Positions 13,314 to 52,948 of a stretch of 64,000 bases of DNA are shown piece after piece. Made by a program: the position numbers and the translations under genes. The notes under the pieces were generated by a model. It had not been told where the DNA came from. It saw only the letters and a program-made list of their open reading frames with translations, and made no database searches. Position 1 is the first letter of the stretch; each line of letters starts with the position of its first letter. Origin of the DNA: Candidatus Hydrogenedentota bacterium (GTDB taxonomy: Bacteria > Hydrogenedentota > Hydrogenedentia > Hydrogenedentales > SLHB01); NCBI GenBank assembly GCA_029552745.1, contig JAKPDK010000184.1, forward strand, positions 186,001 through 250,000. Reading direction: 5' to 3'.

Positions 13314-14581
13314 ACAATGCGGCCATCGCAAATCGTGTAGCGAACCACACCGCGCAAGTGCATACCCCCGAACGGCGTATTACGACTTTTGGAAGCAAAC
13401 TCTTCTGGACGGACGACCCACTCGGCGGTCGGATCAAATACCGTAATATCGGCAGGGCCGCCCACTCGGATCTCACCGGCGGGGAGCCCCAGGATTCTCG
13501 CCGGAGCACTCGTCATCAGCTGGACAAGCTTCTCCAACGCCACCACGCCGGGCTCCACTAACCCGGTAATTCCGAGTGCAAGCGCTGTCTCCAGCCCCAC
13601 AATGCCAAAGGGTGCCAACTGAAATTCAACGTCCTTTTCTGTGAACGTGTGCGGGGCATGATCGGTAGCAATGCAGTCAATGGTGCCATCGGCGAGTCCC
13701 TGCTTTATCGCCATAATATCTTCAAAAGTGCGCAAAGGAGGATTCATCTTCGCGTTGGTGCCAAACCGTTCTACGGCTTCATCCGTCAGCGTCCAATAAT
13801 GGGGTGCTGTCTCACACGTCACGCGAACCCCTGTCGATTTGGCGCGCCGAATGATTTCCACGCCCTCTACCGTACTGACGTGGCAAATATGCACATGGGC
13901 TCCCGCTAATCGCCCCAAACGAATCACCCGATCAATAGCAATCTCTTCCATTTCGCGCGGCAGCCCCGGCAACCCCAAGCGTGTAGAAGTGTACCCTTCG
14001 TTCATGGCGCCGCCTTCCATCAGAGACGCATCTTCACAGTGCGCCAGATAAACGAGGTCGACCATGTTCGCATATTCGAGCACACGCCGCATGACCCAAC
14101 TAGAAGCGATATCATTTCCATCATCGGTTATGGCTACCGCACCGGCATCTTTTAGGTCTGCCATTTCGGTCATCTCGAGCCCTGCCCGCCCCTTCGTAGC
14201 GGCAGCGGCAGGCCAAACCTTGATACAGGCGGTTTCACGAGAACGGCGATTCTGCAGTTCCACCATGCCACCGTTGTCAATCGGTGGATTTGTATTGGGC
14301 ATGGTCACAACCGAAGTAAACCCCCCTCGGGCTGCGGCACGGCTCCCTGTGGCAATCGTCTCTTTGGATTCAAAACCGGGTTCACGGAAATGGACATGAA
14401 GATCAACGAAACCGGGGCAGACTATACAGCCCGCAACATCAAAGCTCTCATCTCCACGAAGGTTCTTGCCGATCGCTACGACCTGCCCCCCGTCAATGAG
14501 AACATCTCGTTCCTCCGACGTTTTCGATACCGGATCGATTAACCGACCGTTTTTTAAAACCACACTCATTGTTGTCTTCAT
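13301..14581 (-). CDS. pyrC: Dihydroorotase (class I)
   Basis: 426 residues. Closes carbamoyl-aspartate to dihydroorotate in pyrimidine synthesis. Zinc-site motifs: [12 protein letters not shown] (HxH), a Lys/Asp-rich region near [30 protein letters not shown], and [10 protein letters not shown] with the catalytic Asp. The HVHFREPG form and length mark the class I enzyme that often associates with PyrB. Its ATG overlaps the pyrB stop as ATGA. Last gene of pyrR-pyrB-pyrC. Confidence 0.95.
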
Positions 14582-16396: not shown

Positions 16397-16608
16397 TGTC
16401 ATTGCGGGAAGCGACTCCCCCGACGCGACGAAGCAATCCCCTCAACCACAATAGTGCAAGAAAACCCAGGGTAAGATCTCGCTCCTCCCGGGATACCGGG
16501 GGATTGCCACGTCGTGCCTACGGCACCCCTCGCAATGACCACCGGGCGTATAAGCCCAGGTCTACCTCCTCGAGGTGCTACCAAACTTGTAGAAACTTAC
16601 GCAACCTC
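16397..16608. repeat. MITE-like composite palindromic repeat, copy 3
   Basis: Begins GTCATTGCGGGAAGCGACTC (16397), then GACGAAGCAATCCCCTC, a central unrelated stretch, GGGGGATTGCCACGTCGTGC, CCCTCGCAATGACC near 16530, and the tail ACCAAACTTG...AACTTACGCAACC (16581-16608). It ends at the stop codon of the RDD gene. The remaining gap 16153-16396 is the leader side of pyrR and holds no gene that I can support. Confidence 0.7.
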
Positions 16609-17420
16609 TATCTGCCCGAGTTTTTTTCTGGAACATGCGCGGACAAAGGCGGCCCAGGCACGGCAGGTTGAAAAAGAATCCCGACGGCATTACGGACATA
16701 TTGCTCGTCGGTCAGTCCATACGTTGCCTCTTCGGGAAATTGCACCAATTCGCGAAAGTATCGGGCAATCTCTGAAAACAGCCGCAGGCGCGCCTCGTCA
16801 ACAAAGTCATTCCTGCGAGCAAGGGCGTCCCATGCCAAGAAAGCTGCCTCCGCAGACACCAACTGCCGTAACCGGGCGCAAAGATGGGGATAATCTCGGA
16901 AGGAGTTGTATTTCTCGGGTTCGAAGCGGTCAAAACGATGGGCAACCGTTTCAGGAATGCGTATGACAACCGTGTTTGCCGCGTAATCACCTAGACGCTG
17001 ACTTTTTTTGCTGATAAAACAACAAATCCCGCCCACAAGGTAAAAAACAGGAAGCGCGTCCACAACCCGAATGAGATTGCGTATTACAATTTGGTTGAAT
17101 TTCAGCGGTAACCCTGCCTCATCCATAACCCGCAGGCGGAAAAGGCGCTTTCCCAGGGTCTGGCCTCGCCAAAACCATTCCAGGACGATGCTATAGCCTG
17201 TGGACACGAGGAAACTTATCAGAATAATAGCGCTCGTAGCCAGGTCGGGAAACAAGGTTACCACCGGTATGAATAACCGACTAAAGGCAGCCAGACTTAC
17301 CCCCACCACCGCCTGATCCACCAGCCAGGCTGAAAAACGCCGCAACAAACCCGCCAGTACCAGGGAAAAGGTCACCCCATCTGGTGTGTGGATCTCAATG
17401 CCGTGCGCGAACGAGTTCAT
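16608..17420 (-). CDS. RDD family membrane protein
   Basis: 270 residues. The RDD domain is seen at FSLVLAGLLRRFSAWLVDQAV (Arg and Asp of the RDD name) with three hydrophobic segments up to about residue 140, including FWRGQTLGKRLFRLRVMDEAG, a family hallmark. The C-terminal 120 residues are soluble and unassigned. The start at 17420 overlaps the upstream stop as ATGA. Last gene of the long minus-strand block and next to the SpoIIM-like gene, the common RDD-SpoIIM-DUF58-MoxR order. Molecular role unknown; some RDD proteins are ion transporters. Confidence 0.88.
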   Translation of the reverse strand: MNSFAHGIEIHTPDGVTFSLVLAGLLRRFSAWLVDQAVVGVSLAAFSRLFIPVVTLFPDLATSAIILISFLVSTGYSIVLEWFWRGQTLGKRLFRLRVMDEAGLPLKFNQIVIRNLIRVVDALPVFYLVGGICCFISKKSQRLGDYAANTVVIRIPETVAHRFDRFEPEKYNSFRDYPHLCARLRQLVSAEAAFLAWDALARRNDFVDEARLRLFSEIARYFRELVQFPEEATYGLTDEQYVRNAVGILFQPAVPGPPLSAHVPEKNSGR

Positions 17421-18448
17421 TCGAATCTGCCCCAACTCGGCACACGAACATCAGAACCGCTACTAGGGCGCCCCAACAAAGAAAAATACAGTATTAATAA
17501 AACCAGCTCACAAATCCCGAATAGTATTTTCACCCAATAGGGCAGCAGAGGCTCATGATACTGAGAAAAGAAGGCTTCCACGATTCCAGCCCATACCAGC
17601 ATCAGCGTCACTCCCAACAGAAACGTTACGACAATTGGGCCAATTCTTCGCAATCGAACTTTGAGAGGTTCGCGGCTTTTCCAACCAAGCAGCGCCCACC
17701 CCAGTACCAGACTACTCTGACCGGCAACAAGAATTGCGGGGATCTCCACCGCTCCATGGGGTAAAAGCCAGCCCAACAGAAAAGCCGTTTCTCCTGCCCG
17801 AATATAGTCCACCGCTACCACCCCCAGGAGAACGCCGTTAAAGAATAAAAGCATAATGGACCCGATTCCCCACGTAATGCCTAGCGCAAACACATAAATG
17901 GACACGCGGGTATTGTGTGTCATATAAAAGGCGCTACCAGAAAGTTGCCGACCTGCCACGTCCTGCCCCGCATGAGCCTCTTCCTCAGAAACCCGTTCGG
18001 AAGGGTTCTGCTGGAGTTCAGGGTAAGGTAACAAAATGGTTTTAGCCCCGGGATCAACCAGTATCACCGCCCCGCCAAAAACGGCTCCTAATAACGTCGC
18101 GAAAGCCGCAATCTCGAACGCACGGAAATGCGCTCGAAAGGTCCGCGGAAAGGTCACAAAGAACCAGTGAAATGGATTGAATCGTAAGGCGCGGTTGCGT
18201 GTTTCATGAATCTCACCGTATGCCCGTATGGCGAGAGACTCAAGATACACTCGGAGTTCGGGTTCCACCGAGACACCGCACAACCTCGAAACGTCCGTAC
18301 ATACGCGGCGATAAAGATAATACAGACGACGTACCTGAGCCAGGGTCAAACGAGGAAAAGCCTCCTTATCTAGTGCCGACAGAAGAGACTCCAGCTCATC
18401 CCAGTAAGGTTTCTCAACGTCAATAAATCGCTTGATATCAATGATCAA
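17417..18448 (-). CDS. SpoIIM/DUF95-family stage II sporulation protein M homolog
   Basis: 343 residues from a TTG at 18448, which overlaps the DUF58 stop as TTGA; the open frame continues upstream to 18577 inside DUF58 and lacks family sequence there. An N-terminal soluble helical part (FIDVEKPYWDELESLL, LYYLYRRVCTDVSRL) precedes about five membrane segments from residue 115. Outside spore formers the family is common beside MoxR-DUF58-RDD genes; no sporulation is implied. Function unknown. Confidence 0.88.
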   Translation of the reverse strand: MIIDIKRFIDVEKPYWDELESLLSALDKEAFPRLTLAQVRRLYYLYRRVCTDVSRLCGVSVEPELRVYLESLAIRAYGEIHETRNRALRFNPFHWFFVTFPRTFRAHFRAFEIAAFATLLGAVFGGAVILVDPGAKTILLPYPELQQNPSERVSEEEAHAGQDVAGRQLSGSAFYMTHNTRVSIYVFALGITWGIGSIMLLFFNGVLLGVVAVDYIRAGETAFLLGWLLPHGAVEIPAILVAGQSSLVLGWALLGWKSREPLKVRLRRIGPIVVTFLLGVTLMLVWAGIVEAFFSQYHEPLLPYWVKILFGICELVLLILYFSLLGRPSSGSDVRVPSWGRFE

Positions 18449-19809
18449 AGCAACTGCCTTCTTTTTACAGTCAAATACTGTGCCACCAGTTGAGCACAAG
18501 CCGTCTCGTTGTTCAATAGATGCAGGGCAATACCCTGCTGCTTCAAAACGTGCTGGAGCTCGCGCAGCTCTTGCCACCGCAAATGGCCTGCCAACACTCT
18601 GTAAATCTCTTCGATGGAATGGGCGTTCCCTTTAGAAAACAGCGGCGCAACACCCTGCGGACAAAACACATTGACGAGCACAAGATGACGTCGGGCAACC
18701 AGAGAAATGCTTCGCACAAACTCCTCCGCCAGTACCGGGTCATCCAGGTTCGTCAAAATGAGTACCAACGAGCGACGGGTCAGACGAAGACGCAAGAAGG
18801 TGCACAGTTCCTGAAAATCCGGATTCACAGGCCGTGCCTCCAGGGTATATAGTGCGTCACGGCATACTCCGAAATGCGTTTTACCAGTTGCCGGTGGAAT
18901 GAATCGGCGGACGCGATCGTCAAAGACTACTAAACCAAAGCGGTCCCCCTGTCGCTGCGCCACAGAACCCAACAATAACGACGCTGCAATGAACCGCTCC
19001 AGGAAAGAGTCGCTCTTCCACTTTTTCGCATTCTCCTCGGCAGAAGAAAAAGACTCGCCATATCTGCCGCTCAGACGAGCAGCGTCCAAAACGACGTATA
19101 TTTCTTGCGTCCGCTCCAGCTGAAAAACTTTGGAAACCAGTTTGCCGCGTTTTGCCGTTGCTTTCCAGTGAATGTCCTCAACCGCATCGCCGGGAATGTA
19201 TTCTCGAAGTTTTTCGAACTCCCTTCCTTTGCCCACCTGACGTTGGGCATGCACACCCAAAAAGCCGTGAATAAGAAACACAGCGGCGAGCCTTTTGCGC
19301 TCTTCAAAAAGGTTCGGATATACACGGATATCGGCATGTTGCGGAAACGTTTTGCGAATATTCCATAGCCCCAACCGCGACGCACGTTCGACATACACCT
19401 TATGGAGCAAGAAACGCCCTCGCTTCTCCGGCGTACAGCGCCATGAGGCGGAAAACCTCTTTTGTTCAGGGTCCAGCCGCAACACCAAGTACTCGTTTAC
19501 CGAACGAAACGAAACCGGTAAGGAAATACCTAAGACCATTTGAACAGGTTTGTAAAAGCTGTGTTGAACAACGACGTCTATGGAACCCTCTCGTTTTCTA
19601 ATGAGGCGGATGGTGCCTGGCACAGAAATCAGCAGCCCATCAAGTGAGCGCAACGAAAGAGCCGCGTCCAACCCGACCGGCACAAGGGAAAACAGAAGGA
19701 CTAGTCCGCAAAGATAATAGGCGCCGGCGTGGGCCATTCCCATCGCCGTTAGCAAAGGCAACCAGACGATACACGCATAAAGAATAAGACGAAAACCGGG
19801 AACAATCAT
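18445..19809 (-). CDS. DUF58 domain protein with VWA-like fold
   Basis: 454 residues. Two N-terminal membrane segments (residues about 8-48), then an Ig-like part and the DUF58 signature FEKLREYIPGDAVEDIHWKA followed by VVLDAARLSGRYGES, a VWA-like metal-site region. DUF58 proteins act with MoxR ATPases, probably as the client or adaptor of a chaperone-like complex at the membrane. Overlaps the moxR-type gene by ATGA. Confident about the family; cellular role is inferred from the conserved gene pair. Confidence 0.92.
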   Translation of the reverse strand: MIVPGFRLILYACIVWLPLLTAMGMAHAGAYYLCGLVLLFSLVPVGLDAALSLRSLDGLLISVPGTIRLIRKREGSIDVVVQHSFYKPVQMVLGISLPVSFRSVNEYLVLRLDPEQKRFSASWRCTPEKRGRFLLHKVYVERASRLGLWNIRKTFPQHADIRVYPNLFEERKRLAAVFLIHGFLGVHAQRQVGKGREFEKLREYIPGDAVEDIHWKATAKRGKLVSKVFQLERTQEIYVVLDAARLSGRYGESFSSAEENAKKWKSDSFLERFIAASLLLGSVAQRQGDRFGLVVFDDRVRRFIPPATGKTHFGVCRDALYTLEARPVNPDFQELCTFLRLRLTRRSLVLILTNLDDPVLAEEFVRSISLVARRHLVLVNVFCPQGVAPLFSKGNAHSIEEIYRVLAGHLRWQELRELQHVLKQQGIALHLLNNETACAQLVAQYLTVKRRQLL

Positions 19810-20771
19810 CGGGGTACCGGTACCTCTTGTAAGATTTGCGCAATGACCTCAGCGATTGTCAATCCCTCGATCTCATACTCCGGACGCAACACCAAACGGT
19901 GTTCCAACACAGGACGCGCCATCTCCTTCACGTCGTCCGGAATGACGAAACTTCTCATGTTGAGTATTGCAGAAGCCCGAGAAGCCAGTAGCAAGGCTTG
20001 TGTGGCTCGCGGTCCCCCGCCCACCAAGATGCCGTTATGCTGCCGTGTTTTACGGACGATGTCTACCACATAAGAAATAATCTGTTCCTGCACGGTCACT
20101 TCACGAAGACATGCCCGAAGATGTGTCAGGAGACCGTCTGTAATGACCTGTTTGACGGCGCCCGAAGCCAACGTTTCCTCAGGAGAATCTGTTCCCAGCA
20201 TGCGGCGCGCTAAGTCTAGTTCCTCCTCTCGGCTGGGACACTCCATGATGATCTTCAGCATGAAACGGTCTTTTTGTGCTTCAGGAAGCGGATAGGTCCC
20301 TTCGTACTCAACCGGGTTTTGAGTGGCAAACACCGTGAAATTCGGAGAGAGAGGATAGGTAGTGCGGTCAATCGTCACGGCGCGCTCCTGCATGGCTTGG
20401 AGCAGGGCGGATTGAGTTTTTGCCGGAGAGCGATTGATTTCATCTGCTAGAAGAAACGTTGTGAAGATGGGACCTTTCACCAACACAAACTCCCCCCGCT
20501 GCAAATTGAAAACGTTTGTGCCTGTGATGTCCGCAGGCATGAGGTCGGGCGTAAACTGAATGCGGGCGAAATCACAGCCGAGCACCCGCGCCAACGTCCT
20601 GACCAGAAGCGTTTTCGCCACACCTGGCACGCCTTCCACCAGCGCGTGATGATTGGTGAAAATCGCTGTCAGTGCTTGATCAATTACATGGGACTGACCA
20701 ATGATGACTTTTCCCACTTCCGCCCTAATCTGCGTCAAGACGTCCTTCAAATAATCGGTATCAAATTGCAC
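19806..20771 (-). CDS. MoxR family AAA+ ATPase
   Basis: 321 residues. Walker A GVPGVAKT, Walker B FLLADEINRS, sensor region FATQNPVEYEGTYPLPEAQKDRFM split across residues 130-155, and the C-terminal lid. MoxR ATPases are thought to remodel or insert metal or cofactor into partner proteins, often VWA proteins such as the DUF58 partner encoded next. Start is GTG with GGAG 11 bases upstream; three bases separate it from the upstream stop. Confidence 0.95.
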   Translation of the reverse strand: MQFDTDYLKDVLTQIRAEVGKVIIGQSHVIDQALTAIFTNHHALVEGVPGVAKTLLVRTLARVLGCDFARIQFTPDLMPADITGTNVFNLQRGEFVLVKGPIFTTFLLADEINRSPAKTQSALLQAMQERAVTIDRTTYPLSPNFTVFATQNPVEYEGTYPLPEAQKDRFMLKIIMECPSREEELDLARRMLGTDSPEETLASGAVKQVITDGLLTHLRACLREVTVQEQIISYVVDIVRKTRQHNGILVGGGPRATQALLLASRASAILNMRSFVIPDDVKEMARPVLEHRLVLRPEYEIEGLTIAEVIAQILQEVPVPR

Positions 20772-20774
20772 GAT

Positions 20775-22190
20775 TTACTTATCTCCTATCCTCTGATTGT
20801 TTGGCGTCAACCGTTGGGTACCCGCATCCACGCCCGACAATCCCCCATAAGGGAGGGTTTTGCCAAGTTCCAGCATGGCGATCCGCTGCACTAACCTATT
20901 GAAATGTTTGACAACGTCCGCCTCCCCTCTGCCCTTTTTGGGAGCAAACGAAACGGTCTGGCGTAATGTCTCGGAAACACCCATCGTGGTTTCCCATTCC
21001 TTCAGACACACCTCCATCAAGTCAGCCGGTGGAACACCCCGACGAACGAGATTTATCAGACAGTCCTGTCCGGTCATATTCTCTACTTCCAAAATCTCGG
21101 TCTGTTCGCTTTCCGAGTATCGGGGAACAAACGGCATCGCGTTTTGCCAGAGCCATAACAAAAAAACAACGGCAAAGCCTACCAAAAGACCGTTCAGACG
21201 GAACCGTTTCACCAACGTCATAATGCCAGGGTTTTCGCGGATTCCTTTCAAATACTCATCAAACACGATGTGTCTTTTGGAATCTACCAACCAGACAAGT
21301 AATCCCGTATATTTTTCGCGCCAAAGCCCCTCGTTGCTAACAAAATAGGTATCTCCCACCATCACGATGCTGCCATCGCCCCAGGATCTTTCCGCGATAA
21401 CGGGTTTGTCATCCCGCCGGTAGAGCGTCCGCCACTCGGGCGACAAATCGGAGAAATATAAACCGCTATACCAAACCAACCGCTCCGGCAAAGCCGAATC
21501 TGCATTATCACAACGAACCGCAGAATCCGGAGAAAATTTTCCATCATTCCCACGAGGCAAACTTGACCAGGCGCAAGTCACTCCCCAACGTTCAGGAAGC
21601 CTCACGGTTTCGACGGTTTCGTCCGATGCCACTTCCTTTGGACGCAAAAGAGGCTCCTCACCCTCGCTATCAGCTCCATGCTCCGTTGAAGCACCGGAGC
21701 CGTTGCTTTCTTCAGACAAGGATGTCCCTTCATTAGCCTCTTCGTGATCGGTTTCGCCGCTTTCATCGGAGGTGTAAGCCTCGCTATCCTCGCTGTCCTC
21801 TTCAACAAAGGATGGCCGAGAAGCATGAGGATAAAAGGCGATGACGACACGTGCCCCCTGCCGGGCAAGATTCTCAAGCGGCTCGATGACCTCCTTCTCC
21901 ACTTCATTTGCGTCGCCGTAGGTTTCAACGCCCAGTAGTAAGAAAGCCAAATCCGTCTTGGCAACCATATCGGAGAAAGGTCGGGTGTTGCGCGAAATTT
22001 CAAGCCCCGGAAGTTCTTTGAGCGCCTCATAAAATACCCGAGTTCCAAGCGGGTCGCTGCGAAACGACGAGTATTCCGGATAAATCTCATCTAAGTTCGT
22101 ATGAACAAAAGGCAAGCGAAACAAAGCGAAGACCGCAACAAAAAGCACCACGGCGCCAATCACCAGAAACAGCCTATTTTGCTTGCTCAT
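20775..22190 (-). CDS. DUF4350 domain membrane protein
   Basis: About 471 residues from the ATG at 22190 (GTG at 22196 is also possible). One N-terminal membrane segment, then the DUF4350 region (PLGTRVFYEALKELPG, FLLLGVETYGDANEV, VVIAFYPHASRP), an acidic Ser/Glu-rich insert around residues 145-190, and a second membrane segment (LLVGFAVVFLLWLWQ) near residue 340. It has the classic sequence of a protein that sits between MoxR and DUF4129 genes in many phyla. Overlaps the DUF4129 gene by 17 bases. Confidence 0.85.
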   Translation of the reverse strand: MSKQNRLFLVIGAVVLFVAVFALFRLPFVHTNLDEIYPEYSSFRSDPLGTRVFYEALKELPGLEISRNTRPFSDMVAKTDLAFLLLGVETYGDANEVEKEVIEPLENLARQGARVVIAFYPHASRPSFVEEDSEDSEAYTSDESGETDHEEANEGTSLSEESNGSGASTEHGADSEGEEPLLRPKEVASDETVETVRLPERWGVTCAWSSLPRGNDGKFSPDSAVRCDNADSALPERLVWYSGLYFSDLSPEWRTLYRRDDKPVIAERSWGDGSIVMVGDTYFVSNEGLWREKYTGLLVWLVDSKRHIVFDEYLKGIRENPGIMTLVKRFRLNGLLVGFAVVFLLWLWQNAMPFVPRYSESEQTEILEVENMTGQDCLINLVRRGVPPADLMEVCLKEWETTMGVSETLRQTVSFAPKKGRGEADVVKHFNRLVQRIAMLELGKTLPYGGLSGVDAGTQRLTPNNQRIGDK

Positions 22191-23997
22191 AGACACCCGC
22201 TTGCTTCACCCAGTCCGCAAATTCAGATAAGACATAAACAGTGGCAGAATCTCTTCCATACCATACACAGTCGAACACATGCACGCATTTTTCAAAGATT
22301 GAGATAACGTTTTTATCATCGCGCGCCTTTCGAACGGCTTCCCGAAGATATTCCCGATTGGTTTTACAAGGCGCTGCGGTAATAAAGCCCCTGCGGGCTA
22401 AATGGGATAGGAAGGCGAGAAAAAGAGCCCGCAACGCAAGCCGATTCTCTCCGCGTTGCATCAGCTCTTGAGCCAATTCGAACCATTTCTCTTCCGGCAG
22501 GTCATCGGGACGAATCTCCTCGCCCTCGAGATCGGGCACGGGCGTTTCGGACACCTGCGGGGTAACAACCGCGCTACGCTTCGTGCGGATCAATGCCCGC
22601 ACTAAAACAAACAGACATATCACAGCCAACAAGACGGCAAGCGCGTAAAATGTCAAACGGGTGACACGTACCCAATTACTGTCCGTCTCTTCAAGACCCG
22701 GAACGGCAGGCAGACGATTGATTAGTCTGCGAATGTATTCGATCACATTGCGAACGGCTTGGTCGATCCACCTAAAAACCTTAAGAATACCCTCCCGAAA
22801 ATCACGAATTAGCCTGAATAAAAGGTTTTCCTGGACGTCGAAGTCCTCGACTCGTTCATGCGGAAACCTCCATACAAACTCCTTTCGGTTCAAAACCTGA
22901 GTTATGGCATGGTCAAGTTCTTGAGGAAGAATCGCCTTTAGATCCTCGGGCGAAGACGTGAAATCTGCCGTAGAGTTGTCTTCAGCTGCAACCGCGGACG
23001 AGAGTAACACGGCAAGAAGCCCCATCGCTAAGAAAACAGCGGCCTTTCCGGCAGATGAAATCCGTCTGAACGCGATACAAACGTCTTCCCCTGTCCGAAT
23101 CGAGTCTCCGTAAAAACAGCGCAACACGTACGCAGCTTTAAGGAAGGGATCCATAATCAAATAGACCAGCCCGCAGACCACCGCCCAAAACACCGAAGAA
23201 AACCAAAAAGACGGCACTTGGGTCAGTATCGTCTCAATTCCTAAGAAAGTTTTGACAAACCACGGTATAGCGATGAGAGTCACAGCAACATTCAGAGACA
23301 GAATAACCCCCACCGGACTGAGAGGTATGCACAGAAGCAAAAGAAGGACTGCCACAAGATCCAAAAGTTCTTGACCGAAATCAAGTAATAAATTGGAGAG
23401 GATAGGTAGAAAACACAGATAGAAAACAGCTGTCGCCACGAGTACCATGGGACTCATCAACCAAACGAGCACAAGGTTCTGCTTTTGCCAGAGAGTTGCA
23501 TGGTGCTTTGCCCTCTGAATCAAGGTGCGCGCATCCATCTTACCATCATCTAGAACCGTAAGGTTTTGATAAAAGGCGTGTGCTTCCCCAAAAGGAAAAA
23601 GTAGCGACAACGCAACAGGTAAAACAACAAAACCTGTCGGTTGGAGGGCTAATTGGTTGCTGACTAACCGCATGATACGCCGCCATGTCCACTCGGAGTT
23701 CCCGTTCCCCGCGACACGTGCCCGTAGTAGTTGGGCGTACGCACTTTGCCAACATTTCATCCAGATAAAAAGCAGCGTCAGCAGACTCGCCCACGCGCCG
23801 CAACGATTCCCTAAGGCTCCCCATCGCCGCATTTCCGACCAAAAATACAACACAGAAACGACAAACGGCATCGCACCTACGTAGTACACAACAAGGTCGC
23901 GCGGGAATCGGCGAATCAAATGAAACGCCTGATCCCCTAAATCGAGACCACTCCTAGCCTGCATACCGAGCTCGCGAGATTTCGACCGGAGAACCAT
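22174..23997 (-). CDS. Multi-pass membrane protein with C-terminal DUF4129
   Basis: 607 residues. The N-terminal half has about six hydrophobic segments. Residues 330-450 are periplasmic or cytoplasmic with a coiled stretch and end in another membrane segment (LTFYALAVLLAVICLFVLV). The C-terminal 90 residues (WFELAQELMQRGENRLALRA, REYLREAV, VWYGRDS) match DUF4129. GAGG lies seven bases before the ATG. DUF4129 proteins go with MoxR, DUF58 and transglutaminase-like genes; no transglutaminase gene is seen here. Confidence 0.87.
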   Translation of the reverse strand: MVLRSKSRELGMQARSGLDLGDQAFHLIRRFPRDLVVYYVGAMPFVVSVLYFWSEMRRWGALGNRCGAWASLLTLLFIWMKCWQSAYAQLLRARVAGNGNSEWTWRRIMRLVSNQLALQPTGFVVLPVALSLLFPFGEAHAFYQNLTVLDDGKMDARTLIQRAKHHATLWQKQNLVLVWLMSPMVLVATAVFYLCFLPILSNLLLDFGQELLDLVAVLLLLLCIPLSPVGVILSLNVAVTLIAIPWFVKTFLGIETILTQVPSFWFSSVFWAVVCGLVYLIMDPFLKAAYVLRCFYGDSIRTGEDVCIAFRRISSAGKAAVFLAMGLLAVLLSSAVAAEDNSTADFTSSPEDLKAILPQELDHAITQVLNRKEFVWRFPHERVEDFDVQENLLFRLIRDFREGILKVFRWIDQAVRNVIEYIRRLINRLPAVPGLEETDSNWVRVTRLTFYALAVLLAVICLFVLVRALIRTKRSAVVTPQVSETPVPDLEGEEIRPDDLPEEKWFELAQELMQRGENRLALRALFLAFLSHLARRGFITAAPCKTNREYLREAVRKARDDKNVISIFEKCVHVFDCVWYGRDSATVYVLSEFADWVKQAGVYEQAK

Positions 23998-24006
23998 GAA
24001 AAAACC

Positions 24007-24372
24007 TCACGGGGATGATTCCGGTAGAGAAGCATCCTCGTCCGAAAAGAACGAATCATTCCCCAAGTTTTGCGCGTGAAAGGGGGTACTAGGTATCGCC
24101 GCAATTCCCAGCCCAAAACTATAGAAAATCAACCAAGTCAATATAAAAGAAGCGACGCACAAGAACGCTTTCCCGATGACGGGAAAAATCTCCCGTGAGG
24201 GTTTTTGACTTCGCGCCTGAAGAGACGCCAAGCACAAAGCGCATATCATCTGGGACTCATGTTCGGTAACGCACTCTCGGCAAAAAAACCTTTGGCAACG
24301 AGGGCAGAGCGCCACTGCCTCACGTGAAGGATGATTGTAGCAACGCTTGAGAATCAGTTGTTCCGTATTCAT
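24007..24372 (-). CDS. B-box-type zinc finger membrane protein (121 aa)
   Basis: Residues 10-50 hold CYNHPSREAVALCPRCQRFFC and a CVTEHE...CALC tail, a B-box-like zinc-binding module; one hydrophobic segment (IGKAFLCVASFILTWLIFYS) follows. The acidic C-terminus (DSFFSDEDASLPESSP) is probably disordered. Bacterial B-box modules in front of membrane segments occur in many rhomboid-like and RDD-like proteins; this one has no catalytic domain. Overlaps the next upstream gene by ATGA. Confidence 0.8.
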   Translation of the reverse strand: MNTEQLILKRCYNHPSREAVALCPRCQRFFCRECVTEHESQMICALCLASLQARSQKPSREIFPVIGKAFLCVASFILTWLIFYSFGLGIAAIPSTPFHAQNLGNDSFFSDEDASLPESSP

Positions 24373-25415
24373 CTCTTTTCGCCAGCGTTTGATTCAACCC
24401 CTGCTCCAAGCGCGGTAACGCGATGCAACAACACGCCGGACATTCCCACCATGCCCAGAACGGCCCAAACAAAGGCTGCAATTCCATAAAAGCCCGTAAA
24501 ACTTTCCTGAAATGACAGAGTTGTCTCATCCGTCATCGGCAAACCCAACGCGAGAAACAAATTGAGATAACCCTCAAAAACCATAACCGTTATGCTGCCT
24601 AAAACAAGGGCAATCCATGTGTATGTTTGTAACCACAACGGCATTGATGTGTTACGCTGTGACGCCAATGCTAGCAACAAGACACTGACCATGATTAGGA
24701 AACACGCACTTGCAAGAACTGAAACCCATTTCCATTCCGGAAACTGGGAACCCATTAAATAAACTCCCGAAAGTACCAGCATCAGGGCAAACGCAGTAGC
24801 ATGGCGTCCACCCTGGTAGAGACGGATCGATCGGGTCGAGGAAGACCGCACGGGAGGTGCTATCCGTTCCCGGAGATAGGCTACGGCTTCGGTCGGGTCC
24901 AACTTTCCCTGGACATTTTCGATGCGCTCTCGGATTTCGCGAAACACACGACGTGCCACCCGCAGGCGTCGGACAGAACCGAGTTCCGTCGACTGCACCG
25001 CCGTATGCACATGGCAGATACAGGTCGGACCTCGTGCGCTATTGATAATCAAAACCGCCAACCACGGCGTGACAAGTGCTAAGGTAAGATAGAGTGTCGG
25101 AGGTTCTAAGGGACTGTAGCCATACGTTCCGATGCCCCATAAAACCAGAAAGGTAAACAAAAGACCCGCCATGCAAACCGCGTTGACACGCCACCTCGTC
25201 AGGGTGGGACTACAGGACAATGCTTGAATATCCTTGTAATACAGCCGCCTGCTGGTCTCTCGGTAGTCCGAGGTACGCATGACAATTAGATGGTCACCAG
25301 CATCCCATAGACTATGACGAACGGGGACTAACAGTCCCATCTGAGAAACCGACCGCGTTAACCGACGGTACTTCTGTGGGGGTTCAGATTGTGTTGACCT
25401 TTCTGTCATTCCCAT
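24369..25415 (-). CDS. Hypothetical multi-pass membrane protein (348 aa)
   Basis: No family recognised. The N-terminal 65 residues are soluble and may form a PH-like or YcxB-like small domain (HLIVMRTSDYRETSRRLYYK). Two hydrophobic segments follow (around 78-98 and 105-125), then a charged linker with CICHVHTAVQ and a helical LRVARRVFREIRERIENVQG, then four more hydrophobic segments. It lies between two zinc-finger membrane proteins in the same operon, which suggests a shared membrane complex, but that is inference from position only. Confidence 0.75.
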   Translation of the reverse strand: MGMTERSTQSEPPQKYRRLTRSVSQMGLLVPVRHSLWDAGDHLIVMRTSDYRETSRRLYYKDIQALSCSPTLTRWRVNAVCMAGLLFTFLVLWGIGTYGYSPLEPPTLYLTLALVTPWLAVLIINSARGPTCICHVHTAVQSTELGSVRRLRVARRVFREIRERIENVQGKLDPTEAVAYLRERIAPPVRSSSTRSIRLYQGGRHATAFALMLVLSGVYLMGSQFPEWKWVSVLASACFLIMVSVLLLALASQRNTSMPLWLQTYTWIALVLGSITVMVFEGYLNLFLALGLPMTDETTLSFQESFTGFYGIAAFVWAVLGMVGMSGVLLHRVTALGAGVESNAGEKR

Positions 25416-25445
25416 AGGATGGCAACATCCCTTCCCTGGAATGAA

Positions 25446-26030
25446 CTAGTAGTAAAAAGAAACATTATCTATTACCGTAACAATCCACATGACTACTAAG
25501 AAAACCGCCAAGAAAGAGAAAACCATCGAGAGATACCAACGCCAACGTCCCCTGGGTACCGCACTCAACGGAGTGCGCCAATGTTTTATAACATAATACA
25601 GTGACGCTGGCACGGTGAAAACTACTAAACAGGGAATAAACAGTGAAACGATAGCCAATACAAGCGCTAACTCATCGTAATGAAAAAACCGGTTTTCTAG
25701 TTCGGGTGTTTTCTTCTGGGAAACCGTTTTATCAAGACACACGGAACAAAAATGGGCTCCCCGAAACTCCAAGTCACACACCGGACAAAGAAAACGGCCA
25801 CAAGTATCGCAAACAACCTCTGCTCGATTGGTCGGATGAAAAAAACACGTACTCTCCTCTGGAAGCGCGGTACTTTCCGGAAGCGGCTCCGGCCTGCCGA
25901 ACAACGCTGGAAACACCCATACGGCGACGGGTCCCCCACATGAAGGACAGGTCTCAATGTCAGACGAGTTCAACATGCCTTCCGGTAAAGGCGCCTTGCA
26001 CTTGCCGCATCTTAAGGTTTCCAAGAACAT
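25446..26030 (-). CDS. Zinc-ribbon plus B-box membrane protein (194 aa)
   Basis: Two zinc modules are visible: CGKCKAPLPEG...CPSCGG (residues 8-33), and the B-box CFFHPTNRAEVVCDTCGRFLC with CDLEF...CSVC. Two or more hydrophobic segments follow (ALVLAIVSLFIPCLVVFTVP and YLSMVFSFLAVFLVVMWIVT), resembling DUF4190-like tails. GGAAG lies six bases before the ATG. Part of the same minus-strand operon, 12 bases after the GYF-RDD gene. Function unknown. Confidence 0.8.
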   Translation of the reverse strand: MFLETLRCGKCKAPLPEGMLNSSDIETCPSCGGPVAVWVFPALFGRPEPLPESTALPEESTCFFHPTNRAEVVCDTCGRFLCPVCDLEFRGAHFCSVCLDKTVSQKKTPELENRFFHYDELALVLAIVSLFIPCLVVFTVPASLYYVIKHWRTPLSAVPRGRWRWYLSMVFSFLAVFLVVMWIVTVIDNVSFYY

Positions 26031-26042
26031 CCCAAGCTTCCG

Positions 26043-26852
26043 TTAGGTGCGAATCACTCGCGTGTCACAAATCTGGTCGTGCCACGTCCGCCTTTCTTCG
26101 TCAAATGCCGCCACCAAATATCCAATGTACAACACCAAAGCACTGATCATTTCCGCAAAATAGCGTCCTAAAGCCCTCCACGCCGACACGCGATTTCCCG
26201 TCGACGTGACGACACGAAGTCCAAACGCCATTTTGCCTAGCGTGGCGCCATACCGCGCCAAGAAAAACACGTTATAAACGATAGGAATAGTAAACGGTAA
26301 AACAAAGAGATAAAAACCGCTCAGCGCTACGTATCCCAGCGTGGGTGAGTCAGCACTGCCATTCAATCCTAAAAGTTCGGTCAACCATAGAAACAGTTGC
26401 GCCACCAACGCGTTGGCAGCACCCACAATAACAACTTGGTCTATCAACTTCGCCGCGGCGCGCTGCCCAAATGTGCCGTACATCGGCGCTCCCGGCAAGG
26501 GCGCACCTTCACGAAGAGCCTGAAGAAAAAGCGGCTTACAGTGAACGCAAACCGTCCGTTTCAGCACAAACACGGTAAAGTTCGGTGGTACCATGTGTCC
26601 ACAGATGGAGCATGTTTCCACCGGGGGAGTTGAAACTTCAGAGCCGATTTCGGGAAGAGGCGATAGCTGAGGCAATGCGGATAGGGAAGCCAGCGACATC
26701 CAGTGTTCCGCTCCAGGACGCCACACCAGAGCACGGTCTGAAATACCCTCGGACGCAAGCGTATCTTGAAGCTCTTCCCAAGATAAGGGACCCTGAGGCG
26801 CCTCCTTTAGATCAAAGACCCACCAGATTTTGGGAGACGTTTCTATACTCAA
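26043..26852 (-). CDS. GYF_2 domain-zinc ribbon-RDD membrane protein
   Basis: 269 residues from a TTG at 26852, chosen because GGGGAGG lies seven bases upstream; another TTG at 26873 has no such site. Domain order: GYF_2-like (IWWVFDLKEAPQGPLSWEEL, residues 8-60), a zinc ribbon CSICGHMVPP...CVHCKP (about 83-112), and a C-terminal RDD domain (FGQRAAAKLIDQVVIVGAAN, YGATLGKMAFGLRVV). This architecture recurs in Planctomycetes- and Acidobacteria-like genomes. Second gene of the putative operon, 64 bases after the NrdD-like gene. Role unknown. Confidence 0.85.
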   Translation of the reverse strand: MSIETSPKIWWVFDLKEAPQGPLSWEELQDTLASEGISDRALVWRPGAEHWMSLASLSALPQLSPLPEIGSEVSTPPVETCSICGHMVPPNFTVFVLKRTVCVHCKPLFLQALREGAPLPGAPMYGTFGQRAAAKLIDQVVIVGAANALVAQLFLWLTELLGLNGSADSPTLGYVALSGFYLFVLPFTIPIVYNVFFLARYGATLGKMAFGLRVVTSTGNRVSAWRALGRYFAEMISALVLYIGYLVAAFDEERRTWHDQICDTRVIRT

Positions 26853-26916
26853 CCGGTTTCCTCCCCGCGTCAATCAGGGAACCTCATGAAATTGGGCAAC
26901 GCCGAATACTTTACCT

Positions 26917-29235
26917 TCAAGGAACTTGGATCCTCAACCTACGGACCGGCGTGTCAGAAAAGACCTTGTACAGGAAGGCAACGAGCGAATCAGGATTCAC
27001 CTCTTCCTCCGGCAAGCGAACCTGTATCGTCTCTGGCAATCGAAAACCCATGTAAATCTCCGACTCCAACCGCACCTTTTCGAATGGAGTGACCTGAGCC
27101 TCTTTTGCCAAGCCGCCGCCGGGAGTATACGAGAGATCATGAGTTACAGGATCGTTCTTTACATAGTGGCGCGCTTCTTTCGGAAATGCTTTGAGGTCGA
27201 GCCGTGCAAAACGACCCGCAAGCGATTCATCCCATGTGCAAACAGGTTCCAAAAATAGGTCCAGTTGCTCGCCCATCTCCGCACAGTACGCTGCAATGTA
27301 CCGTGTGATCCGAACGGCAAGTTCGTGGGCGTGCGGGTGTTCCTGTATCTGATAACCACACAGGACTTGCACACACTCGTTTAACCCAACTAGACCTACG
27401 CGACAGATCGCTTTTTCGGGAAGGAACAAGGGCTTTGCCTCCCACTGTTGGGTTAGAAACTGCAAAGGTCCCTGAGGACCAGCCGACAGAAGACGCTTGA
27501 TGAAAGCCCGTTTGGCATGATAAGCACGCCCGACGATATCCAGCATCCCCTGGATTTCTTCATACAACCTCGATTCCTGCTTAGCCCGGTAAGCTGCACG
27601 CGGTAAATTCAAAGAAACCTCTTCCAAACAGGGCAACTTCACACAGAACTCGTTGTCTTCCGTGAAAAGGTCATCTTCCCGATTAAAAATAATGTCAACA
27701 AAGCGCGAGCTACCCGGTTTGTGTCTTTCCTTTCTACGCAAACCAAGTATTTCATCTACCAATGTGCCCAAGAACTCTCGTCCTTGCGCTGTACGGAAAG
27801 AGGACACCCCTAGACAAAAAACAGGAAACCAATCTGTCGCCGGCGTAAGTGTCCCCTCCCCGTCGCTCAAGACCCGAAATGCCGCAACAGACATCCTTGA
27901 AAGGGTCTCTTCAATCAAGGTGGGTGTCTTATCAAATTCTTCCGCGACCCGTTCCACAAAGAACCGGGAAACGTGACCGGGAATTTCTATCTCCGTCTTG
28001 GGCACACCTTGTTGCGCACTTTCGGAACGTAGTCCGAGGAGGAAACCTCGGAGAAACCGCTCCAGCGCGAGGTCCCCGAAGTCAGCCGCAAAGGGGGCTG
28101 CATAACCAAAGGCATTTTCCCATACGATCCGTTCGGAACAATAGGGTCGCAGGATATCCGCCAAACGCGCCGACTGCGTCAAGAAGGAATCGGCATGGCG
28201 CGGTGGTTTACAAACCCTCCCAAAAGGCAATTCGGATATGCCGTATCGTATTATATGAGCCAATAAAACGCGAAAACTATGAAGACGGTCGATATACCCT
28301 AAGTGATGAATGAAAATATCACCCCGTATATGGGCATCTGACTCATGCTCCGAAAAAACGCACGTGAAGGCAAACTCCTTTTTTACCCTCTCGGCGATTT
28401 TTAGATCGGTGGTTTCGGGATTGGCAGGAACCAACGACTCACCGGAATTGGGCACACAAATGATACGTTCCGCGTCAAAAAGAGGAACCCCCAGTCTCAT
28501 GTGCCGTCTTCGGTAGGTCTCATAGCCTCGCTCTATCAGCTTTGCATCTACGAGTTCCCGAATTAAGGAAGCCGTGAGCGTCTTCAACCCGCAGTTTACA
28601 ATAATTTGTTGAACTTCGGAGGCGATACCCCGTGCCAATTCGGAAGGCATTCCCGTCTCACGGACAAGCGCCGCCACGATCCGCTCCGGGTCCCACACCA
28701 TTAAGGCGTCTTCGCTTGTACGCACCCAAATCGAGTCCAAACCAGCACCTTCGTGAGCATCCGGGCTAGTCGCCCCCGTCTCCCGAAACCTCTCACCGGC
28801 AACGTCGCGGCTCAACTCTCTAGCTCGATTGCGTTTTTCCCGATACTGGCGATATGCAAAAGCAACTGGCGTATGTCCCAGCTCGTTCAAGACCATTTCC
28901 ACAGCGGCGCTCACGTCGTCCACTGTCGGGATAGAGCCACGTGCTGCCTTAGCCAAGTAAATAGCCACACCCGTGGCGACATACTCTGCACGGTAGGGGT
29001 CTCTATCACCGACGGATTCGGCAGCACGCCGGATCGATAACGTGATTTTGGCTTTATCAAAAGGCTCCTCACGCCCGTCCCGCTTACGTATACGGGTCAG
29101 CGCAGGCGCGGGACCCGCAATCGGTTCGGGGAAACGAAGTTGTGCATCATATTTCCCTTCGGGGTCCTGAGGGTTTGTGGACGGGTCGAACAGTTCGCCT
29201 TGGTGTCCGAACATTTTGGAGTCCAACTTCGCCAA
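26917..29235 (-). CDS. NrdD-like protein with two ATP-cones and no glycyl-radical domain
   Basis: 772 residues. Residues about 45-141 form an ATP-cone (IRKRDGREEPFDKAKITLSI), and 168-260 a second, more diverged cone. The rest resembles the class III ribonucleotide reductase core: RGDIFIHHLGYID against SGDLHIHDLGFLG of the true NrdD in this window, LEEVSLNLPRAAY against GVVTINLPRIGY, and VGLVGLNECVQVLCG against IGIVGMNEALLNFMG. It ends at VRRLRIQVP, matching the point just before the zinc finger and radical loop, so both are absent. It is therefore unlikely to be a reductase. Start is TTG; ATG at 29214 is possible. A 64-base gap leads to the next gene. Confidence 0.82.
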   Translation of the reverse strand: MAKLDSKMFGHQGELFDPSTNPQDPEGKYDAQLRFPEPIAGPAPALTRIRKRDGREEPFDKAKITLSIRRAAESVGDRDPYRAEYVATGVAIYLAKAARGSIPTVDDVSAAVEMVLNELGHTPVAFAYRQYREKRNRARELSRDVAGERFRETGATSPDAHEGAGLDSIWVRTSEDALMVWDPERIVAALVRETGMPSELARGIASEVQQIIVNCGLKTLTASLIRELVDAKLIERGYETYRRRHMRLGVPLFDAERIICVPNSGESLVPANPETTDLKIAERVKKEFAFTCVFSEHESDAHIRGDIFIHHLGYIDRLHSFRVLLAHIIRYGISELPFGRVCKPPRHADSFLTQSARLADILRPYCSERIVWENAFGYAAPFAADFGDLALERFLRGFLLGLRSESAQQGVPKTEIEIPGHVSRFFVERVAEEFDKTPTLIEETLSRMSVAAFRVLSDGEGTLTPATDWFPVFCLGVSSFRTAQGREFLGTLVDEILGLRRKERHKPGSSRFVDIIFNREDDLFTEDNEFCVKLPCLEEVSLNLPRAAYRAKQESRLYEEIQGMLDIVGRAYHAKRAFIKRLLSAGPQGPLQFLTQQWEAKPLFLPEKAICRVGLVGLNECVQVLCGYQIQEHPHAHELAVRITRYIAAYCAEMGEQLDLFLEPVCTWDESLAGRFARLDLKAFPKEARHYVKNDPVTHDLSYTPGGGLAKEAQVTPFEKVRLESEIYMGFRLPETIQVRLPEEEVNPDSLVAFLYKVFSDTPVRRLRIQVP

Positions 29236-49813: not shown

Positions 49814-50554
49814 TCATCCCGAAATGGCAAGAGTGGAGTTTTTAACAGAGGCAAATCCCCGTAAAGTACACTCCGCAACATATATCGAAGCCTTCTTCGC
49901 CATTTCGCGGACTATCTCCATCGGCAACGGGGTGTGCAACGTACGGAGGTCGGCGGTGGCACCGTAAACCGGCGGTTTCCGGTACTGCTGTAGCACATAC
50001 CGCTTTGCCCCATGTATACGAGCTGCTATCTCGAGGATGTCAAGTTCGCTCAATTGAGGCACAACCGTCGTACGAAACTCGTAATCCGGCGCAAGCGTTA
50101 TGATTGCGTGAATACTCGCGTCAATGTCTTCCTGGGAAACCTTCGCTCTGCAGATGGAATCATATTTAGTCCCGGATGCCTTGACATCCATAGCGACATA
50201 GTCAAAAAGCGAGTCCGTCAGTAATTTCTCAAGCCGCCGAGGTTGCGTGCCGTTGGTGTCCAATTTTGTCTTAAAGCCTAGGTTGCGTACCTGCCGAACA
50301 AACTCTTCCAAACCGGTTTGAAGCGTCGCCTCCCCCCCAGAAAATACGACCCCTTCCAAAAAGCCGCGCCGCATTTCCAACCAACGGAGTATCTTCGTAA
50401 GCTCCGCACGCGTTTGTTCCCCGTTTCCCAGAGAAACAAGGTGGCGGTTGTGGCAATAGTAACAATCCAAATTACAACCAGGCGTAAAAAGGACCGCAAC
50501 CACATGCCCTGGCCAATCCACAAAAGAACATGGTTCTATGCCCGCAATCCTCAT
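49814..50554 (-). CDS. nrdG: Anaerobic ribonucleotide reductase activating protein (radical SAM)
   Basis: 246 residues. The [4Fe-4S]/SAM motif is CNLDCYYCHN (CxxxCxxC) at about residue 28, with GGEATLQ and downstream SAM-binding strands. It makes the glycyl radical on NrdD. Sequence and length match the NrdG2-type subgroup. The ATG overlaps the nrdD stop as ATGA, a coupled pair. Confidence 0.94.
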   Translation of the reverse strand: MRIAGIEPCSFVDWPGHVVAVLFTPGCNLDCYYCHNRHLVSLGNGEQTRAELTKILRWLEMRRGFLEGVVFSGGEATLQTGLEEFVRQVRNLGFKTKLDTNGTQPRRLEKLLTDSLFDYVAMDVKASGTKYDSICRAKVSQEDIDASIHAIITLAPDYEFRTTVVPQLSELDILEIAARIHGAKRYVLQQYRKPPVYGATADLRTLHTPLPMEIVREMAKKASIYVAECTLRGFASVKNSTLAISG

Positions 50555-52671
50555 CGCACCACACCCGCTCCCTCAAGCTGACGCGTTCCCAGTTCATATT
50601 TACGTCGCTCAAAATACTCTGCTTTCTTGCCATCGTTGAAATTGGCTACGGGACGTAGGTAGCCGGTCACACGCGACCACACTTCCGTTGGTTTTCCACA
50701 CTCGGGACAGACAAAGTGCTCCCCACGAATGTAGCCGTGAGAACCGCATACCGTGAACGTCGGCGTTATCGACAAGTAAGGCAGGCGGAACTGGGTGAAG
50801 GTTTTCTGGATCAGCCGTTTACACAAGTTGATGTCCTCGATGCTTTCACCCAAGTAGACGTGCAAAACCGTGCCGCCCGTATACATCGTTTGAAGTTCGT
50901 CTTGTAATCGCAACGTTTCAAACAAGTCTGTGGTATATCCTACGGGCAATTGCGTGGAATTTGTATAATATGGTGTCCCGTTCCCCGCAGCGCGGATATC
51001 GGGATAACGGGACTTATCGAGTTTTGCCAAACGATAGGCTGTCCCTTCCGCCGGGGTAGCTTCCAGATTGTACACGTGACCGGTCTCATTCTGGATTTCC
51101 AACAAAAGCCGCCGCAGATAGTGCATGATCTCCAGGGCAAATTTTCTGCCTGCTTCTGAACCGATGTCACATCCCATGAAATTGAGCAGGGCTTCATTCA
51201 TCCCCACGATGCCGATAGTGCTAAAATGATTGTGCCAGTATTCTCCGGTCTTCTCTTTGATGTGGCGGAGATAATGGGCAGAATACGGATAGAGCCCATT
51301 TTCTGTTTCCCGCTCGATTATCTTCCTCTTAATCTCAAGTGACGTCTTAGCAATTTGCACCATACGATACACGCGGTCTTTGAATTCCTCTTCAGTCCTG
51401 CTAAAGTAACCGATTCTGGGCAGATTTATGGTCACAACGCCAATGGAGCCGGTTAACGGATTACTTCCAAAAAGCCCCCCGCCACGTTTTCGGAGCTCGG
51501 AAGTATCCAGACGAAGACGACAACACATGGACACGGCATCTTCCGGCGAAAGGTCCGAATTCACATAGTTTGCAAAATAGGGAATGCCGTATTTGCAGGT
51601 GATTTGCATGAAGGCATCCACAGCCGGCGAATTCCAATCGAAATCTTTTGTAACGTTTATCGTGGGAATCGGAAACGTGAACACGCGCCCTTTGGCATCC
51701 CCTTCCATCATGACTTCGCAAAACGCCTGATTGAAAATATCCATCTCTTTTTGAAATTCGCCATAGGTGACGTCCTGAAGTTTACCACCGATGATGACGG
51801 GTTGATCCCGCAAGGTCTTGGGGGGAGTCAAATCAAAGGTGAGATTCGAAAAAGGACATTGAAACCCGACGCGTGTCGGCACGTTGATATTAAAGACGAA
51901 TTCTTGCAAACACTGGCGCACTTGTTGATAGGTGAGACCGTCAGAACGAATGAATGGAGCACAATACGTATCAAAGTTTGACCAAGCCTGCGCCCCTGCC
52001 GTCTCCCCTTGTGTCGTGAACGTTGAATTGACTATTTGCCCAAGAAATGAGCGGAGATGCCTCGCGGGACGACTTTCCACTTTACCCGGAACACCGCCAA
52101 AACCTTCCATTAACACCTGCCTAAGATCCCAGCCTGCACAATACGGACCCAAGAAACCCAAATCATGGATGTGAAGGTCGCCGGATTCGTGTGCCTCACG
52201 CACCTCAGCAGGATACACCTCATGAAGCCAGTAGTTTTTCGTAAAAAATTCTCGGACATAGTTGTTTAAACCGTTGATACTTTTTTGGGTGTTGGCGTTT
52301 TCCCGTACCCGCCAATCTTTCTCCTGCAAATAATCGGAAAACATGCTGATCGTCGCGCCGATTAGCGCGTTCAAGTTACGCGCACTCGCCCGCTTTTCCC
52401 GGTAAAGAATATATGCTTTCGCAGTACGTGCATGGCCGTTTTCTATGAGTACCTTCTCTACGATGTCCTGAATACCTTCCACTTCAGGTACACGATTGCC
52501 ATATTTTTTGAGCGCCAAATCAAGGACCTGACGACACAGCTCCTCCGCTCGCGAATAATCGCTGCCACCGCAAGCCACCGCCGCCTTAAAAATCGCCCGC
52601 GTTATTTTCTCAGCATGAAACGGCTCCAAGCGTCCATCACGTTTTCGAATCATCTCAAACATATCGTTCAA
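50551..52671 (-). CDS. nrdD: Anaerobic ribonucleoside-triphosphate reductase (class III)
   Basis: 706 residues. Reduces ribonucleotides to deoxyribonucleotides with a glycyl radical, so it works without oxygen. N-terminal ATP-cone (IRKRDGRLEPFHAEKITRAI, residues 6-97) for allosteric control; core with SGDLHIHDLGFLGPYCAGWD and MCCRLRLDTSELRKRGGG; a C-terminal zinc site (CGSHG and CPECG); and the radical loop RVTGYLRP with G670. All expected elements are intact, unlike the NrdD-like protein at 26.9-29.2 kb. Confidence 0.96.
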   Translation of the reverse strand: MNDMFEMIRKRDGRLEPFHAEKITRAIFKAAVACGGSDYSRAEELCRQVLDLALKKYGNRVPEVEGIQDIVEKVLIENGHARTAKAYILYREKRASARNLNALIGATISMFSDYLQEKDWRVRENANTQKSINGLNNYVREFFTKNYWLHEVYPAEVREAHESGDLHIHDLGFLGPYCAGWDLRQVLMEGFGGVPGKVESRPARHLRSFLGQIVNSTFTTQGETAGAQAWSNFDTYCAPFIRSDGLTYQQVRQCLQEFVFNINVPTRVGFQCPFSNLTFDLTPPKTLRDQPVIIGGKLQDVTYGEFQKEMDIFNQAFCEVMMEGDAKGRVFTFPIPTINVTKDFDWNSPAVDAFMQITCKYGIPYFANYVNSDLSPEDAVSMCCRLRLDTSELRKRGGGLFGSNPLTGSIGVVTINLPRIGYFSRTEEEFKDRVYRMVQIAKTSLEIKRKIIERETENGLYPYSAHYLRHIKEKTGEYWHNHFSTIGIVGMNEALLNFMGCDIGSEAGRKFALEIMHYLRRLLLEIQNETGHVYNLEATPAEGTAYRLAKLDKSRYPDIRAAGNGTPYYTNSTQLPVGYTTDLFETLRLQDELQTMYTGGTVLHVYLGESIEDINLCKRLIQKTFTQFRLPYLSITPTFTVCGSHGYIRGEHFVCPECGKPTEVWSRVTGYLRPVANFNDGKKAEYFERRKYELGTRQLEGAGVVR

Positions 52672-52897: not shown

Positions 52898-52948
52898 ACC
52901 CCATTATATAGTGGTGTTTATATTCTGTCAATACAAAATATATGGTAA
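52898..52948. promoter_or_regulatory. Probable tandem NrdR boxes over the nrdD promoter
   Basis: Box 1: ACCCCATTATATAGTGGTGT (52898-52917), a near palindrome matching the published NrdR consensus acaCwAtATaTwGtgt at most positions, covering the -10. Box 2: weaker, around ATACAAAATATATGGTAA (52931-52948), covering the -35 and upstream. Centres are about 33 bases apart, close to three helical turns, as usual for paired NrdR sites. NrdR itself is not in the window. Confidence 0.55.
52903..52931 (-). promoter_or_regulatory. Consensus sigma-70 promoter of nrdDG
   Basis: Minus strand: TTGACA (52931-52926), 17-base spacer, TATAAT (52908-52903). Both hexamers are perfect. Start near 52896. Confidence 0.9.

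Follow-up and report, generated by a model that had tools for sequence, protein, structure and literature searches.

A phylum-wide ribonucleotide reductase pseudoenzyme of the Hydrogenedentota and its probable role in nucleotide sensing

Ribonucleotide reductase (RNR) is essential. The ATP-cones of RNRs change the oligomeric state on binding ATP or dATP, and NrdR, the repressor of RNR genes, is itself an ATP-cone protein whose control is only partly understood. Among class III enzymes, the active site of the NrdD of P. copri includes Cys416, Cys171, Gly711, and an NxN flap (PMC11226230). Here, we describe an NrdD paralog, which we call X, encoded in a 64,000-nucleotide stretch of Hydrogenedentota DNA (the window). 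The closest catalytic kin of X are not the canonical NrdD of the same window but the long two-cone class III RNRs of other phyla (NrdD of WOR-3, Desulfobacterales, and Eisenbacteria; TIGR02487/PF13597). X resembles them in domain order, in its two cones, and in its barrel fold, with 30-33% identity across nearly the full length, but differs in lacking every catalytic element tested as well as the Zn/glycyl domain, in its relaxed barrel, and in a new tail motif. X thereby recalls pseudoenzymes in general, in which a dead enzyme copy is retained as a regulator. In the literature searched, we found no description of X, of an NrdD or other RNR pseudoenzyme, of a dead RNR copy kept as a regulator, or of RNR in Hydrogenedentes.

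Fold and active site of X

The frame of X begins with a TTG start codon and runs from 29235 to 26917 on the minus strand. The features of the window discussed below are the following.

26917..29235, minus strand: gene X, a 772-aa NrdD paralog predicted to be catalytically dead (pseudoenzyme), defined by ORF, Pfam, TIGR02487, Foldseek, and alignment
29188..29202, minus strand: QGELF, residues 12-16, a second QxxLF-type sequence, weak and present in some members only
29122..29160, minus strand: residues 26-38 (EGKYDAQLRFPEP), the conserved motif of the N-terminal tail, with EGxFDxQ[LM]x[LF]P as the family consensus and a likeness to the Hda/clamp-binding motif in most families other than f1
28801..29097, minus strand: ATP-cone 1, residues 47-145, with the nucleotide-binding signature KRDG...F...KI intact (Pfam, alignment)
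28486..28740, minus strand: ATP-cone-like domain 2, residues 166-250 (second Pfam stretch, AlphaFold2 model, alignment)
26920..28428, minus strand: relaxed RNR barrel in which the catalytic Cys, the Cys-loop sequence, the Glu, the NxN flap, the Zn finger, and the glycyl loop are all missing (alignment)
16608..26873, minus strand: downstream membrane-protein cluster (RDD ... SpoIIM, RDD), judged to be no conserved partner of X
50551..52671, minus strand: canonical NrdD of the same genome, used for comparison
52899..52946, minus strand: two NrdR boxes whose starts are 32 bp apart, located upstream of the canonical NrdD

Pfam recognized the ATP-cone (PF03477) in two stretches of X (E 2.6e-20) and NRDD (E 4.7e-36), and the score against TIGR02487, the NrdD equivalog, was 122.9 bits, below the 326-bit cut-off. 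An AlphaFold2 model built from 36 family members had a mean pLDDT of 82.7. When this model was compared with the PDB by Foldseek, the best 36 matches were all class III RNRs, from S. thermophilus, P. copri, T. maritima, and phage T4, and the RNR/glycyl radical enzyme barrel fold was present. Structure prediction and structural alignment thus recovered a class III RNR fold, in agreement with the two ATP-cones and NrdD-like core that a preliminary description of this DNA had reported.

We then considered the catalytic residues. When X is aligned with long two-cone NrdDs from other phyla, the Cys of the first barrel strand is seen to be replaced, and the ISECCRL loop, which bears the thiyl-radical Cys, is deleted. 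The EQTPAES motif has lost its Glu, and the NxN flap is changed. X has neither the Zn finger nor the glycyl loop RVxGY, which is missing at the C terminus of all members read. The preliminary description had noticed that X ends ahead of the Zn site and the RVTGY loop, and this holds against the window's NrdD at 50551-52671, but it had overlooked that the two catalytic Cys, the Glu of the active site, and the NxN flap have gone as well. The catalytic residues are lost in every aligned X and kept in all canonical long NrdDs. With no radical glycine, no Cys for the thiyl radical, no second Cys, no Glu, and no substrate flap, X is almost certainly dead as an RNR and unable to reduce ribonucleotides, judging from its sequence. 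Pfam would nevertheless label it an anaerobic RNR, which X cannot be, an annotation trap.

About 40 homologs show the identical loss and nearly all of them have intact frames of 740-800 aa, so neither chance nor decay accounts for it; pseudogene decay, considered as a candidate, was ruled out because the long frames remain intact across many genera. All members examined share this form of inactivation, and none has an intact radical loop. Split NrdDs do occur in Omnitrophota-type genomes, and X might likewise have been one half of a two-part RNR with its glycyl-radical domain on a separate protein. However, searching the phylum with the domain of a split NrdD as a query revealed no free-standing glycyl-radical domain; the matches were long NrdD frames, together with two shorter frames that overlap truncated NrdD matches. 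In addition, X has lost both Cys, and we give the two-part arrangement a negligible probability.

Several other class III loci had unusual architectures of their own. In L086 (12325-12651), L147 (~13531-13840), and L097 (~14954), NrdD stops after the Zn finger, and a downstream ORF of ~100 aa encodes the glycyl-radical domain on its own, as a detachable glycyl subunit of NrdD. L147 also contains a large in-frame insert with intein-like features exactly at the first catalytic NrdD Cys, beginning after PY and finishing with HN before C. The Eisenbacteria-type NrdDs of L100, L101, L102, L125, L151, L085, and L111 keep both catalytic Cys and either end at the radical glycine or have Asp there; in L102 and L125, the next ORF begins with a thioredoxin/glutaredoxin-like sequence (VFYVKEDCDACKNAKEK).

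Distribution, ancestry, and constraint

Profile searches for homologs with the same truncation found them throughout the phylum, with clear X homologs in 56 of 68 Hydrogenedentota genomes and divergent ones in 6 more. These genomes were assigned by position, the family profile at E<=1e-30 matching 63/68 genomes, some of them through canonical NrdD alone. On genome contigs, a single-sequence scan gave no match and an alignment query retrieved the homologs. The genomes without X are incomplete ones, with the exception of G052 (94% complete). Highly divergent X-like proteins without the tail motif were seen in L072, L073, and L074 (family f6 and part of f10).

In a phylogenetic tree, the X members form one clade (SH-aLRT 100), the neighbors of which are two dead, long-branched relatives from Acidobacteriota and another bacterium. 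These NrdD relatives, L149 (Blastocatellia) and L127, have lost Cys and the glycine and kept the Zn finger. We conclude that X is a genuine RNR pseudoenzyme, spread across the phylum and descended from a class III RNR of the long type with two ATP-cones.

The pattern of constraint was read from mean pairwise identities. Cone 1 is as conserved in X as in its canonical relatives (0.59 versus 0.60), and cone 2 is at 0.57 in X and 0.52 in the relatives. In contrast, identity in the barrel is 0.33-0.35 in X versus 0.56-0.68 in the relatives, and at the C-terminal end it is 0.27 versus 0.67. The tail motif shows the opposite, with 0.66 in X and 0.19 in the canonical relatives; within the tail of X, this value belongs to residues 26-36 and falls to 0.14 and 0.30 in the flanks. 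X is therefore under selection, with constraint on the cones and the tail and a relaxed barrel. Since the cones are as conserved as in active relatives, the barrel is relaxed, and a new N-terminal motif is conserved, X is best regarded as a selected pseudoenzyme, most likely an ATP/dATP sensor. We consider it probable that X is a regulator that reads the ATP/dATP level of the cell and acts by nucleotide sensing. The earlier proposal of a nonreductase NrdD paralog, likely a nucleotide sensor, is thus supported by the lost catalytic Cys and the constrained cones.

Genomic neighborhood and RNR repertoire

As the preliminary description stated, X is followed by ten minus-strand genes separated by small gaps or overlaps. 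They encode a GYF/RDD protein, a B-box protein, a 348-aa membrane protein, a second B-box protein, and DUF4129, DUF4350, MoxR, DUF58, SpoIIM, and RDD proteins. The same description had proposed that X heads and serves this membrane operon, linking it to a membrane or envelope machine. The common strand, the short gap, and the lack of any predicted terminator-like site in the gap after X are in line with that proposal. However, the flanks of 40 X homologs, read up to ~14 kb where contigs allowed, contained no homolog of the ten downstream genes, of pyrRBC, or of the upstream genes by BLASTP at E<=1e-3 (the database was verified with a known query). Furthermore, SpoIIM was detected in 34 genomes, but its gene and X lie on a common contig in the window genome alone. 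Conservation of the neighborhood is thus absent for the membrane cluster and the link to an envelope machine is not supported: the operon beside X is a local accident, and a role of X in its service is highly improbable.

In family f10 (L055, L062, L068, and L071), X is preceded on its own strand, at a distance of 10-105 bp, by the gene of a conserved membrane protein of 640-730 aa.

We next compared the distribution of X with that of active RNRs. The main RNR of the phylum is a monomeric B12-dependent RTPR, present in 61/68 genomes, whereas canonical NrdD was detected in 39/68 and strong class I/II barrels in 8. Many genomes seemed to be without class I/II RNR by PF02867 at E<=1e-30, an impression that we rejected as a model artefact, as monomeric RTPR scores weakly there. 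About 16 genomes that are at least 90% complete have X and no canonical NrdD at the search threshold, so X is no mere NrdD accessory; X also persists without detected RTPR in G056 (98% complete) and G002, and it therefore depends on neither enzyme.

These distributions bear on two ways in which X might act directly on an RNR. In the first, X would form mixed dimers with canonical NrdD as the inactive partner, and the common fold and the presence of both genes in the window genome would suit such a role. The ~16 high-quality genomes that have X without canonical NrdD argue against it, as does the relaxed barrel of X, and we consider mixed dimers very unlikely. In the second, the ATP-cones of X would serve in trans as the activity switch of the monomeric class II RTPR, which has no cone of its own. 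RTPR is widespread enough for this, Pfam detects no ATP-cone in the window genome's own RTPR, and class I RNR is regulated by cones on another subunit, according to one report (PMC5794259). Yet X is kept in G056 and G002, where no RTPR was detected, it lies away from RTPR in the loci read, and it stands outside the NrdR-box regulon; moreover, the co-occurrence of two near-universal genes carries little information. A switch of RTPR by X accordingly seems improbable to us, if less so than mixed dimers.

The NrdR circuit and the N-terminal tail

In 13 genomes, belonging to families f1, f3, f4, f7, and f11, nrdR lies directly upstream of X on the same strand. The gene order was rsmD-nrdR-X in 9 checked cases, and a promoter-like TTGTnT-N17-TAnACT was found in the nrdR-X gap in most of the 9 loci read. 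G052, the only high-quality genome without X, is also the only one without NrdR. In 11/16 genomes, the thyX-RTPR operon is preceded by two 16-bp NrdR boxes, 30-32 bp from start to start, and such a pair also precedes the window's NrdD (52899..52946). The published spacer of NrdR boxes is 15-16 bp (PMC12051234). The boxes before the window's NrdD were found by a looser pair scan, a search for the E. coli-type NrdR box, with as many as 3 mismatches allowed, having given no match in the window. No comparable pair was found before X. By this distribution of boxes, X adjoins a regulator gene and yet is no NrdR target, unlike real RNRs.

At the RTPR loci (L189-L204), thyX lies just upstream of the B12-dependent RTPR in the window genome (L189), and the NrdR-box pair of the 11/16 genomes is located 0.7-1.3 kb upstream of RTPR or directly before it.

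The best overall explanation, which we favor by a little over an even chance, is that X is an ATP/dATP-responsive regulator in the NrdR circuit controlling RNR expression; for the placement in the NrdR/dNTP circuit taken by itself, we hold the chances to be even. In this circuit, the two conserved cones of X would bind ATP/dATP, the conserved peptide in the disordered N-terminal tail would dock a partner, and X could modulate NrdR, e.g., by cone-cone contact or by a changed nucleotide state seen by NrdR. X and NrdR have an ATP-cone in common, in addition to the adjoining genes and the proposed circuit, but X has a large RNR-like body and no DNA-binding Zn ribbon. Against the placement, X and nrdR are apart in most genomes, by ~60 kb in the window genome; their synteny may represent inherited gene order and not a working pair, and their joint absence is based on one genome.

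The tail itself offers an indication of a possible partner. It precedes cone 1 and is predicted to be disordered. Searched as DNA in the 68 genomes, the tail pattern occurred about once per genome, nearly always inside X, versus 2/68 genomes matched by a reversed control pattern. No second recurrent owner of the pattern was found, the other matches read being unrelated singles. We compared the tails with the published beta-clamp-binding motif (PMC3836487, PMC4703070, PMC11139829), using the pattern Q-aliphatic-x-[LM]-(x)-[FL] in a disordered segment. Outside family f1, 14/18 tails matched strictly (shuffled mean 0.6, maximum 3), and several of them read exactly QLSLPL, the motif of Hda, whereas none of 34 NrdD relatives matched. 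The Hda motif likewise lies in a disordered N-terminal segment (PMC3836487, PMC11139829). IMS-type (Y-family) polymerases of the phylum bear the usual clamp motif QLRLF or QMSLF, so the phylum's clamp uses this motif code.

These observations suggest that X might be a nucleotide sensor docked on the sliding clamp, with a tail that would bind the beta clamp as in Hda and cones that would signal the ATP/dATP state to the replisome or to the control of DnaA. However, family f1, which includes the window protein, gave 0/19 strict matches, its tails reading QLSFPA or QLRFPE (QLRFPE in the window protein), and the conservation reaches upstream (EGxFD), beyond the needs of a clamp motif. We therefore regard clamp docking as possible but rather unlikely. 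Hda, a clamp-bound DnaA regulator, resembles most X proteins outside f1 in its disordered N-terminal QLSLPL-type motif and its nucleotide-binding body; it differs in fold, X being unrelated and without an AAA+ domain, and the motif has drifted in the window's family. A broader proposal, in which an RNR pseudoenzyme held on the sliding clamp by an Hda-like tail reads ATP/dATP through its two cones and ties both replication and NrdR-controlled RNR expression to the dNTP pool, is more doubtful still.

If X is kept as a regulator, it would be a case of the ATP-cone and the RNR scaffold being turned to sensing alone, and NrdR would gain a possible partner. Should the clamp motif hold, X would connect the supply of dNTPs physically and directly to the replisome.
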